Of a stretch of DNA of 64,000 nt, positions 56,133 through 59,048 are shown piece after piece. The DNA is from Brachybacterium saurashtrense. Its GTDB lineage: Bacteria > Actinomycetota > Actinomycetes > Actinomycetales > Dermabacteraceae. Within the stretch, counting starts at the first letter, position 1, and each line of letters begins with the position of its first letter. The translations under genes were made by a program, and so were the position numbers. The DNA lies in NCBI RefSeq assembly GCF_003355475.1, contig NZ_CP031356.1, forward strand, positions 1,240,001-1,304,000, in the 5' to 3' direction. The notes under the pieces are model-generated. The model was given only the letters and a program-made list of their open reading frames with translations, made no database searches and was not told the DNA's origin.

Positions 56133-56627
56133 ATGGAGAGCCACGACACCCGGGACCGGACATCCCGCCCGCTCGGTGCGCCGTCGCGGAGCGCGGGCCC
56201 GAGCGTCGCACCGCTGCTGCGGGAGCTGCTCGGCGACCGTCTGCGCCGCGAGCGCCGACGGCAGGGCCGCACCCTCGCCGAGGTGGCGCGCCGGGCCGGG
56301 ATGAGCATGCAGCACCTCTCGGACGTGGAGCGGGGACGCAAGGATCCCTCCTCCGAGCTGCTGGCCGCGGTGCTCGGCGCCCTCGGGGTCGCCCTGCCCG
56401 ATCTGCTGGGGCAGGTCGCCGCACAGGGGTCGGCCGCGCACAGACCCGCGGCCGACGGCGCTCTCCACTCGGGCCGAGGCCGGGTGCTGGACCTCACGGC
56501 GCCGCGCCGCAGCGCCCCGCCCCCGGGGACCGACCGTCGCGGGCCGGGGCAGGGCGGCGCGAGCGCCCCCGCACCCGCCCGCTCCCCCGGCCCGCACGGC
56601 ACGGTCAGGCTGCTCGCGGCCGCCTGA
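56133..56627 (+). CDS. XRE-family regulator resembling PopR/ClgR, with ssrA-like C-terminus
   Basis: 164 aa. One Cro/C1-type helix-turn-helix at ~31-90: LGDRLRRERRRQGRTLAEVA, RRAGMSMQHLSDVERGRKDP and SSELLAAVLGALGVALPDLL. This is the conserved part of ClgR/PopR, the activators of clp genes in Streptomyces and Corynebacterium. The remainder is a disordered Pro/Ala/Gly/Arg tail ending GTVRLLAAA. A terminal Leu-Ala-Ala is the degron of ssrA tags, and PopR and ClgR of Streptomyces are known ClpP substrates through C-terminal alanines. The gene converges on the clpP pair and overlaps the last 23 bp of the neighbouring clpP (56605-56627). Confidence 0.85.
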   Translation: MESHDTRDRTSRPLGAPSRSAGPSVAPLLRELLGDRLRRERRRQGRTLAEVARRAGMSMQHLSDVERGRKDPSSELLAAVLGALGVALPDLLGQVAAQGSAAHRPAADGALHSGRGRVLDLTAPRRSAPPPGTDRRGPGQGGASAPAPARSPGPHGTVRLLAAA

Positions 56628-57207
56628 GCAGCACCTCGTCGGCGATCCCGTAGTCGACGGCCGCCTGCGCGTCCAGCACCCGTTCGCGCTCCAGGTCTCC
56701 CCGCACGGCGTGCCGGTCCTGCCCGGTGTGCTCGGCGAGCAGGCCCTCCACGGTGCCGCGCAGCCGCTCCACCTCCTCGGTGGCGAGGATCAGATCCGGC
56801 ACCGCACCGCGTCCCTGCGCCTGGAGCGGATGCAGCACCACCCTCGTGTGCGGCAGCACCCAGCGCATCCCCGGCGTGCCCGCGGCGAGCAGCAGCACGG
56901 GCGCGGCGACGACCTGCCCGATGCAGGTGACCGCCACCCGGCTGCGGACGAAGGCGAGGGTGTCGTAGAGGGCCAGCACCTCCTGCACGTCCCCGCCCGG
57001 GGAGTTGAGGTAGAGATGGATCGGCGCGTCGGCGGCGTCGTTCTCCAGGTGCAGGATCTGGGCGATCGCCGTGTTCGCGACGCCGTCGTCGATCGGCGTG
57101 CCCACGTAGACGATCCGGTCGCTGAGCAGCCGGGAGAAGACGTCCGCGCTGCGCTCCGCGCCGGTGCGGGTGCGCTCGATGACCGAGGGGATGGTGTAGC
57201 CGCTCAT
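56605..57207 (-). CDS. clpP: ClpP-family subunit lacking the catalytic serine
   Basis: 200 aa, full-length ClpP fold: LLSDRIVYVGTPIDDGVANT, HLENDAADAPIHLYLNSPGG, LALYDTLAFVRSRVAVTCIG, YGIADEVLLR. The catalytic region reads IGQVVAAPVLLLAAG where active enzymes have GQAASMGA, so the nucleophile Ser is Ala101. His126 is kept (TRVVLHPL), while the third triad residue in ERER is Glu175, not Asp. The Met after the Ser is also lost. It should therefore be a non-catalytic ring subunit, comparable to plastid ClpR. It overlaps the active clpP by 4 nt, so the two are co-translated and may form mixed rings. Confidence 0.9.
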   Translation of the reverse strand: MSGYTIPSVIERTRTGAERSADVFSRLLSDRIVYVGTPIDDGVANTAIAQILHLENDAADAPIHLYLNSPGGDVQEVLALYDTLAFVRSRVAVTCIGQVVAAPVLLLAAGTPGMRWVLPHTRVVLHPLQAQGRGAVPDLILATEEVERLRGTVEGLLAEHTGQDRHAVRGDLERERVLDAQAAVDYGIADEVLLRRPRAA

Positions 57208-57869
57208 CGCGTGCCCCCGACCCCCGCGGGCCGGCCGCGCTCGCCGTACAGGCCCAGCGGGAGCACATCCCGCAGATCGGCCAGCACATGATCGGCGAAG
57301 CCGTACGCCACCGCGGCCGGGGCGTCCCAGATCCGGTCCCGCTCGGATTCCCGCGCGATGGTCTCCACGCTCTGCCCGGTGCGCTCGGCGGTGAGGCGGA
57401 TGAGCAGGTCACGGTTCCTGCGCAGGTCCGCCGCCTGCAGCTCGATGTCCGCGGCGCTGCCGCCGAACCCGGCCGAGCCCTGGTGCATCAGCACCTGGCC
57501 GTGCGGGAGCACGTACCGCTTCCCGGGCGTGCCCTGGGTGAGCAGGTACTGCCCGGCGCTGTAGGCCATGCCGAGCCCGACCGTGCGCACATCGCAGGGT
57601 ACGAGGTCCATGAGGTCCCCGATCGCGAGCATCGCGGGGACCAGCCCGCCCGGGGAGTTGATCAGGAGCGTGATGTCGGCGGCAGGGTCCTCGGAGGCGA
57701 GCAGGAGCAGCTGGGCGGCCAGGCCCGCGCCGTTGTCCTGAGCCAGTTCGCGGTCCAGCAGCAGCACCCTCTGGTGCAGCAGCCGCGCGGCGGTGAGGGA
57801 GGCCAGGGTGGGCGCGGAGGGTGCGTCCTGAGCGTCGAGTCGAGGGGGTGCGGCGAGGTGCGGTGTCAT
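57204..57869 (-). CDS. clpP: ATP-dependent Clp protease proteolytic subunit (active paralog)
   Basis: 221 aa with an intact triad: Ser104 in LGMAYSAGQYLL, His129 in GQVLMHQGSAGFGG and Asp178 in ESERDRIWDAPAAVAYGFAD. Other ClpP landmarks are LLLDRELAQDNGAGLAAQLL and ITLLINSPGGLVPAMLAIGD. The C-terminal ~25 residues (LYGERGRPAGVGGTR) extend past the usual end. The pair with a PopR-like regulator parallels the Streptomyces clpP3-clpP4 locus; orthology is inferred from layout. It is first of a two-gene operon whose second product is predicted inactive. Confidence 0.93.
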   Translation of the reverse strand: MTPHLAAPPRLDAQDAPSAPTLASLTAARLLHQRVLLLDRELAQDNGAGLAAQLLLLASEDPAADITLLINSPGGLVPAMLAIGDLMDLVPCDVRTVGLGMAYSAGQYLLTQGTPGKRYVLPHGQVLMHQGSAGFGGSAADIELQAADLRRNRDLLIRLTAERTGQSVETIARESERDRIWDAPAAVAYGFADHVLADLRDVLPLGLYGERGRPAGVGGTR

Positions 57870-57917
57870 GGCCTCAGCATGCGTCGGCCCCGGCCGCGGG
57901 GCGCGGTTCTCCGTCCA

Positions 57918-57931
57918 GCGCTGATCAGCGC
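57918..57931. promoter_or_regulatory. Palindrome upstream of the clpP pair
   Basis: GCGCTGATCAGCGC is a perfect 14-bp palindrome, 48 bp before the first clpP start and 24 bp past the DUF4037 stop. It could be an operator for the nearby regulator or the terminator stem of the DUF4037 gene. Confidence 0.4.
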
Positions 57932-57954: not shown

Positions 57955-58998
57955 TCAGCCGCCGACGAGCCGGCGCCGCAGCACCGGATCGACCAGCACG
58001 CTCACGTGGTCGCTGATCTGCTCGGCCGTGCCGATCCCGGGCGTCAGCGCCCGGACCTCGGGATCGGTGATCCCCTCGGCGAGCAGCTCCGGGAGGCCGC
58101 GCAGCCCCAGATGCGGTCGGTCGAAGAAGGGCTCCACGGCGGGCTCGAGGGTGGGCAGGCCCACCCGTCCCTGGGCTGCGGCGGCTCGTGCGATCGCCGT
58201 GCCGAGGGCGCGCTGGCGGGTGCGCCAGTCCCGGGCCCGCAGCACCGCGAGGGCGGCCTCGCGCAGCCCCTGCCCGCCCGGCAGTGCGGCGGCGGAGCGT
58301 GCGAGCCACTTCCCGTAGGGTGCCCATCGTCGGTGCAGGAGATGCGCCAGGTGCAGGAGCGTGCGCACGTGGCGCGCCGCGATCACCGCGGAGCCGTCCT
58401 CGTCGCCGCGCAGTCCGGCGCGCCCCACGTCCGGGAGCTCCTGGCCGATCCGGGTCCAGTCGGCGCCGAGCGCGTAGCGCCTCACGTCCTCCGGGTACTG
58501 CGCGAGCCGCGCCCGGATCGCGGTGAGTGCGCCGGTGCCGTCGTGGAACACGGGACCGGCGGTGACCTCGAGCGCCGCCTGCCCGGTCAGCTGCAGCCAG
58601 TCCGCGAGGTCCAGCGGCGCGTCGGCGGCGAGGCGCCCCGGCGCGATCCCGACCCGCGAGGCGGCGAAGTCCGCCGCGCGGGCGACCTCGACGCGCTGGC
58701 GGACCACCGGCTCCCAGGTGGTCGCGAAGCGCGTGGGCAGTCCGCGCCAGCTCGCCGGGAGCTCCCGCTCGAGCAGCGCGTCGACCTCGTCGGCCGCGCC
58801 CTCCTCCTCGACGAGCAGGGTGAGCCGCAGTCCCCAGTCGTGGTCGCGGGACTGGGCGTCGTCGAACCCGAGCACGTCGGAGCCCGAGCCCAGCCGCGCC
58901 GCCGCGTGCGGGAGGCCGGGCAGCCGACGCTCCAGCAGGGGCGCCACCACCTCGCTGTGATAGTCGGCGGACAGCTCGAGGCCGGAGGCGCTGGTCAT
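57955..58998 (-). CDS. DUF4037 domain protein (nucleotidyltransferase-like)
   Basis: 347 aa from the ATG at 58998 (a start at 59019 is also possible; neither has a good ribosome site). N-terminal nucleotidyltransferase-like core: LELSADYHSEVVAPLLERRL, then AARLGSGSDVLGFDDAQSRD with GS...D and the HDW motif, giving the acidic pair of the Pol-beta fold. The C-terminal DUF4037 helical half includes IRARLAQYPEDVRRYALGAD, LHLAHLLHRRWAPYGKWLAR and LPTLEPAVEPFFD. Some family members are found with aminoglycoside-modifying-like enzymes, but the substrate is unknown. It stands upstream of the clpP pair on the same strand. Confidence 0.82.
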   Translation of the reverse strand: MTSASGLELSADYHSEVVAPLLERRLPGLPHAAARLGSGSDVLGFDDAQSRDHDWGLRLTLLVEEEGAADEVDALLERELPASWRGLPTRFATTWEPVVRQRVEVARAADFAASRVGIAPGRLAADAPLDLADWLQLTGQAALEVTAGPVFHDGTGALTAIRARLAQYPEDVRRYALGADWTRIGQELPDVGRAGLRGDEDGSAVIAARHVRTLLHLAHLLHRRWAPYGKWLARSAAALPGGQGLREAALAVLRARDWRTRQRALGTAIARAAAAQGRVGLPTLEPAVEPFFDRPHLGLRGLPELLAEGITDPEVRALTPGIGTAEQISDHVSVLVDPVLRRRLVGG

Positions 58999-59048
58999 GG
59001 GAGCACTGTGCCATCCCACCAGGCGCCCCGTGGCGCGAACGGGCCGAT

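Follow-up and report, generated by a model that had tools for sequence, protein, structure and literature searches.

Recurrent loss of catalytic triad residues in ClpP4-type subunits of Actinomycetes, as seen from a PopR-clpP3clpP4-like operon in Brachybacterium

Based on alignments of the two subunit families, the ClpP4-type subunits of Actinomycetes have lost residues of the catalytic triad recurrently, while the partner ClpP3-type subunits kept theirs. One such pair is encoded in the genome of Brachybacterium saurashtrense, where the ClpP4-type protein has neither the nucleophile Ser nor the acid Asp. We think it likely that such a pair forms an asymmetric core, with ClpP3 as the cutting subunit and ClpP4, a ClpP2-type subunit that no longer catalyzes, as the docking site for ClpX/ClpC, and that it is encoded by a backup operon of the PopR type. 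The recurrence of the catalytic loss suggests a division into a cutting ring and a ring that receives the feeding motor.

The pair lies in the window, by which we mean the whole stretch of 64,000 nucleotides that was analyzed. The features of the locus, in window positions, are:

56133..56627, plus strand: gene for a PopR-like XRE/ClgR-family regulator; C-terminus RLLAAA, a candidate Clp degron; matches HTH_31 and HTH_3, and NF041677 (ClgR) at 77.7 bits, below the cut-off of 170
56605..57207, minus strand: clpP4-type gene, 200 aa; nucleophile-less, with Ala101, His126 and Glu175; axial-loop motif YTIPSVIERT kept; E. coli docking positions 62 and 82 occupied by Tyr66 and Phe86
56683..56685, minus strand: codon of Glu175 (acid Asp position) in the clpP4-type gene
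56905..56907, minus strand: codon GCC for Ala101 (nucleophile Ser position) in the clpP4-type gene
57204..57207, minus strand: ATGA stop/start overlap of 4 bp, coupling the clpP3-type and clpP4-type genes
57204..57869, minus strand: clpP3-type gene, 221 aa; catalytic subunit with intact triad Ser104/His129/Asp178; canonical axial-loop motif absent; E. coli docking positions 62 and 82 occupied by Leu69 and Leu89
57907..57926, minus strand: PopR-box-like operator GATCAGCGCTGGACGGAGAA upstream of clpP3, likened to the S. lividans box in the available part of PMC9775585
57918..57931, no strand: perfect palindrome GCGCTGATCAGCGC, overlapping the PopR-like box

The regulator gene is convergent with the operon, tail to tail, and shares 23 bp with the 3' end of clpP4. 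The next gene upstream of clpP3, also on the minus strand, encodes a DUF4037 protein (57955-59019), and the box and the palindrome fall in the gap of approximately 85 bp between the two genes. The genome (3.72 Mb, a single contig) encodes four clpP genes: the window pair and, distinct from it, the housekeeping clpP1clpP2 at 442.8-444.1 kb. Two genes of the genome with Clp_N domains are candidate ClpC/ClpB-type partners. Among the 80 best loci listed, the closest named loci to the window pair are from Brachybacterium.

Both window proteins match the CLP_protease domain (PF00574; 170.1 and 178.1 bits), which rules out a chance resemblance to ClpP. Alignment to the E. coli triad S97/H122/D171 places Ser104/His129/Asp178 in the clpP3-type protein and Ala101/His126/Glu175 in the clpP4-type protein, which retains SPGG and the catalytic His. 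An AlphaFold2 model of the latter, made with 35 aligned window and named-locus proteins, reached a mean pLDDT of 87.6 and a pTM of 0.81, and its nine nearest solved chains all come from M. tuberculosis ClpP1P2 entries (40-41% identity). By model and alignment, the protein thus has a ClpP fold without a full catalytic triad, as a ClpR does, with the His kept. The sequence-only reading of this DNA had described a coupled pair of one canonical and one nucleophile-less ClpP beside a regulator; the triads, the ATGA overlap and the regulator gene were all confirmed by alignment and open reading frames, and with them the observation of such a pair.

The same reading had asked whether A101 and E175 are fixed, and in the genus orthologs examined they are. 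We examined 20 Brachybacterium orthologs, 19 from a search of 36 genomes of the genus (own genome included) and one (G160/L045) from the search of the order. Every one of them carries Ala in place of Ser and Glu in place of Asp, which rules out a strain-specific mutation or a sequencing error in the window. The catalytic His is kept in 17 of the 20 and replaced by Arg in three (L020, L021 and L045), and the clpP4 reading frame is open in every one. Across 171 pairs from 19 genomes, the Nei-Gojobori dN/dS of the dead clpP4 has a median of 0.253 (range 0.034-0.423), compared to 0.298 for clpP3 in the genus; the dead gene is under purifying selection. The operon is patchy in Brachybacterium, being present in 19 of the 36 genomes and absent in 17, some of which are incomplete assemblies. 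At one locus of Brachybacterium halotolerans (L017, the same as L055), the clpP3 frame is cut after the His and the adjoining dead clpP4 is open.

The wider survey drew on two kinds of search. A ClpP4-type profile search covered 396 genomes of the order (123 matched), 394 of the class (149 matched) and 198 of the phylum (113 matched); a contig-wide profile search, from which the best 80 loci for the ClpP4 query were retained, gave a biased sample. Of the 338 loci collected, 337 yielded ClpPs, and collapsing identical proteins left 309 ClpP3-type and 312 ClpP4-type rows. Removing 16 unique ClpP2-like rows (six housekeeping, ten low-scoring) from the latter left 296. Since these 16 were chosen partly by an intact triad and a low score, the altered share is slightly raised by their removal (193/312 with them back). 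Four retained intact rows (L315, L321, L323 and L324; 300-313 bits) may also be ClpP2-like, an effect in the opposite direction, and L324 is also the ClpP2 match of its own genome in the housekeeping search. For the class, 111 of the 149 matching genomes were counted (approximately 300 bits or more), the lower-scoring ones being set aside after about eight had been inspected, all intact. Matches in the phylum were mostly below 300 bits, and the counts include only four from outside the class, two of which (L259 and L336, both S/H/A) are among the altered proteins.

The triad is altered in 193 of the 296 unique ClpP4-type proteins (hereafter dead) and intact in 103. Ser is lost in 140 (139 if one Thr counts as a nucleophile), His in 69 and Ser or His in 183; Asp is changed in 57, and only ten of the 193 differ solely at the acid. 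In the evenly drawn samples, ClpP4 is altered in 70 of the 123 matching genomes of the order and in 72 of the 111 genomes counted for the class (149 matched). By contrast, the ClpP3-type triad is S/H/D in 293 of 294 proteins, the sole exception being the cut frame of L017. The replacements in ClpP4 vary with the lineage. Ala replaces Ser in all 13 named Nocardia loci, Gly replaces Ser in Agromyces (3/3) and Gordonia (2/2), and all 25 named Streptomyces ClpP4s of the set, which does not include S. lividans, are likewise dead, with Gly at the catalytic His. Brachybacterium differs from Streptomyces in having lost Ser and Asp and not, or not first, the His. Nocardioides is mixed, with 9 of 16 named loci intact. 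Housekeeping triads, unlike that of the window ClpP4-type protein, are intact: S/H/D was found in 30 of 30 ClpP2s and 28 of 30 ClpP1s. These controls are not an even draw; 68 of 79 genomes had a match, and the 30 loci closest to the own ClpP2 were taken. The other two ClpP1s (of L344-L373) carry Glu for the catalytic Asp (S/H/E).

A tree of 103 ClpP4 representatives was built with the catalytic positions and four neighbors on each side removed. At least 12 changes between dead and intact are needed on this tree, compared to 32.4 with shuffled labels, so that the label is clustered on the tree; five of the changes are forced by the starred branches. When loss is treated as irreversible, the best tree requires 30 losses, falling to 17, 10 and 5 after branches below support 80, 90 and 95 are collapsed, all counted on a quick tree with 31 of 100 forks open and with horizontal transfer of the operon lumped together with descent. 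When dead ClpP4s are compared to intact ones, conservation is relaxed most at the three triad positions and next at columns 71, 66, 96, 8, 125 and 69. Intact ClpP4s have 63 conserved columns; 53 of these remain conserved in the dead ones, and the ten relaxed columns include the triad.

The combination of an active and an inactive ClpP paralog in one proteolytic core is known from cyanobacterial and plastid ClpP/ClpR (available parts of PMC7966870 and PMC4673316), and a similar one is proposed for the window pair. Dead and intact ClpP4s interleave in one actinobacterial tree, which held no ClpR, and for this reason the resemblance to ClpR probably reflects how the proteins work and not a shared descent. 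Unlike ClpR, the dead ClpP4s apparently arose separately, inside actinobacterial ClpP4, with close relatives still intact; on the same tree, we consider descent from ClpR unlikely. In the model search, the window protein matched NF009204, a ClpR-type model, at 119.6 bits against a cut-off of 263.

Features for docking are distributed reciprocally to those for catalysis. We scored mature E. coli positions 62 (F/Y/W) and 82 (F/Y/W/H) and found both kept in 192 of the 193 dead ClpP4s (146 when His at position 82 is excluded) and in all 103 intact ones, but in only six of 294 ClpP3s, four of which are partners of L315, L321, L323 and L324. The axial-loop motif follows the same division, being present in 192/193 dead ClpP4s, 92/103 intact ClpP4s and 20/294 ClpP3s, and in 6/6 housekeeping ClpP2s versus 0/6 ClpP1s. 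ClpP3 has no aromatic at position 82 in 193 of 194 pairs with an altered ClpP4 and in 78 of 101 pairs with an intact one, counts that ignore kinship. The two aromatics are insufficient for docking: in 25 of 30 housekeeping loci ClpP1 carries F/Y/W at both sites, yet this subunit does not dock in Streptomyces. The wider ClpP4 pocket is itself altered, with His at position 49 in 92% and Thr at position 90 in 64% of dead ClpP4s. Of 11 pocket positions, more are hydrophobic on average in ClpP3 (9.92) than in ClpP4 (7.97), and this score did not separate docking from non-docking subunits, whereas positions 62 and 82 did.

This division resembles that of the housekeeping actinobacterial ClpP1P2, in which one subunit cuts and the other docks the ATPases, although for ClpP3P4 it is proposed here from sequence. 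In S. hawaiiensis, according to the part of PMC9765437 available, all three ATPases need the residues that correspond to three pocket residues of E. coli (precursor Y74, Y76 and F96) in ClpP2 and not in ClpP1; activity is full with ClpP2 S131A and is abolished by mutations in the ClpP2 pocket. M. tuberculosis particles in which ClpP1 is active and ClpP2 is inactive achieve full processing (PMC4416901, available in part). Mixed particles with a single kind of active subunit are plausible.

By the features that can be tested in sequence, the window locus is a member of the known PopR-clpP3clpP4 group. The sequence-only reading knew of no described actinobacterial operon of two clpP genes with a regulator of its own, but such a system, clpP3clpP4-PopR of S. 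lividans, has been described (PMC9765437 and PMC12607617, each available in part), and the window matches it in gene content, in regulator type and C-terminus, and in operator. Both have a two-gene clpP operon apart from clpP1clpP2, a ClgR-family regulator with an Ala-Ala end (RLLAAA in the window) and, in degenerate form in the window, a PopR-type box upstream of clpP3. A convergent downstream regulator is present at 170 of 193 dead loci and 86 of 103 intact loci but at none of the ten low-scoring ClpP2-like loci, and it ends in Ala-Ala at 154 of the 170 and 78 of the 86. The window regulator scores 58.6-76.9 bits against 24 Streptomyces regulators of the clpP3clpP4 locus and 55.1 bits against the ClgR-like protein of its own genome, and it belongs to the ClgR family, being related to ClgR at the level of the family only. 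That it is ClgR itself is thought unlikely, as a better ClgR-model match lies elsewhere in the genome (110.4 bits, likewise below the cut-off of 170).

The box pattern, a degenerate version of the PopR box of S. lividans (PMC9775585, in its available part) that was composed after inspecting 32 upstream regions, was found upstream of clpP3 at 140 of 291 loci, compared to none in reversed and one in coding controls; 151 of the 291 do not have the box as written. A tighter pattern has two matches in the own genome, one of them at the clpP3clpP4-type operon. The second (G000:C1:193668-193687, L342) is either another target or a chance match.

The ClpP1P2 of S. lividans degrades PopR, and once it fails, clpP3clpP4 is expressed (PMC9765437, PMC12607617); viability needs at least one of clpP1clpP2 and clpP3clpP4 (PMC9765437; available parts in each case). 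By analogy, the window operon would encode a backup protease of this kind, an actinobacterial PopR-type Clp core, ClpP3P4. Its PopR-like activator with the Ala-Ala end would be destroyed by housekeeping ClpP1P2, so that the operon would be turned on when ClpP1P2 fails or is blocked. ClpP3 would be the cutting subunit, and ClpP4, a ClpP2-type subunit with catalysis lost, would form the ring for ClpX/ClpC docking and substrate entry, the two rings being separate and stacked. With the docking aromatics gone from ClpP3, any working particle would have to include ClpP4, whose own active sites would be redundant and would decay along different routes in different lineages.

An arrangement as in cyanobacterial ClpP3/R, with ClpP3 and dead ClpP4 alternating in one ring and diluting the active sites to tune activity, is unlikely. 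It has a precedent in rings of three ClpP3 and four ClpR (PMC4673316, available part), and the ATGA overlap of the two genes would suit it. However, the nearest structural matches of ClpP4 are M. tuberculosis ClpP1P2 chains, each homolog commonly forms its own heptamer in two-isoform systems (PMC8182300, available part), and separate rings fit better with docking and catalysis being lost reciprocally. We give still less credence to ClpP4 as a decoy that enters housekeeping ClpP1P2 or displaces its subunits and so inhibits it, as ClpP-ADEP does to ClpP1. A ClpP homolog that disrupts ClpP1 complexes does exist (PMC12607617, available part), but a decoy would need neither an intact clpP3 upstream nor an intact triad of its own, and at 190 of the 193 dead loci the gene immediately upstream is of the clpP3 type (intact in 193 of 194 pairs) and 103 ClpP4s in the same operon type have an intact triad. 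Nothing found lends support to dominant-negative control of ClpP1P2, which the sequence-only reading had raised.

That the altered ClpP4 retains activity, by way of an unusual site or one induced in the complex, is very improbable. Asn172 of Listeria ClpP1, which has Asn for Asp, does align into an active triad when complexed with ClpP2 (PMC9765437, available part), and the ten acid-only ClpP4s could be read in this way, but the window protein and the other Ser-less ClpP4s are missing the nucleophile itself. Least probable of all is that ClpP4 is an eroding relic, for although triad positions are variable in dead lineages and the pair is absent from many Brachybacterium genomes, some of them incomplete assemblies, its dN/dS is below that of clpP3, its docking and axial-loop residues are near invariant and its frame is open throughout the genus orthologs examined.

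For the asymmetric core, the order of the losses can be pictured as a ratchet, a proposal to which we give slightly less than an even chance. Loss of docking by ClpP3 would have come first, and the working particle would then have to contain ClpP4, as one ClpP3 ring and one ClpP4 ring, since ClpP3 has lost the docking aromatics. Once ClpP4 was obligatory, its active sites would be redundant and would therefore decay, many times independently and in Streptomyces as well, leaving a class of Clp protease with one cutting-only and one docking-only ring. Redundancy alone does not predict this decay, since our controls show none in housekeeping ClpP2, which can likewise dispense with catalysis in vitro. 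E. coli BL21(DE3) has a ClpP of its own, a caveat to the evidence against the asymmetric core that comes from this host, in which a Streptomyces cattleya protein named ClpP4, with ClpX, shortened the half-life of RelB (PMC4989188, available part); the numbering of that paper differs, its ClpP4 and ClpP5 being the neighbors.

The suggestion that the system is undescribed therefore stands in part: the anatomy of PopR-clpP3clpP4 is known, but the catalytic death of ClpP4 and the reciprocal loss of docking by ClpP3 were not found in print. Neither appears in the available parts of PMC9765437, PMC12607617, PMC9775585, PMC8182300, PMC4989188, PMC4416901, PMC3258218, PMC7966870 and PMC4673316. A statement that ClpP4 is catalytically dead was not found in open papers, and the first descriptions of clpP3clpP4 (Viala; Gominet, 2000-2002), which lie outside this scope, may hold one.

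ClpP is an antibiotic target. If the ClpP3P4 core does consist of one catalytic and one docking-only ring, active-site inhibitors and pocket binders should strike different subunits. ClpP3P4 is reported to be insensitive to ADEP (PMC12607617, available part), and the altered residues of the ClpP4 pocket would then be a lead for this insensitivity. The losses in ClpP4 offer natural replicates of a question usually approached by mutation, namely how a two-subunit enzyme comes to need both of its parts.
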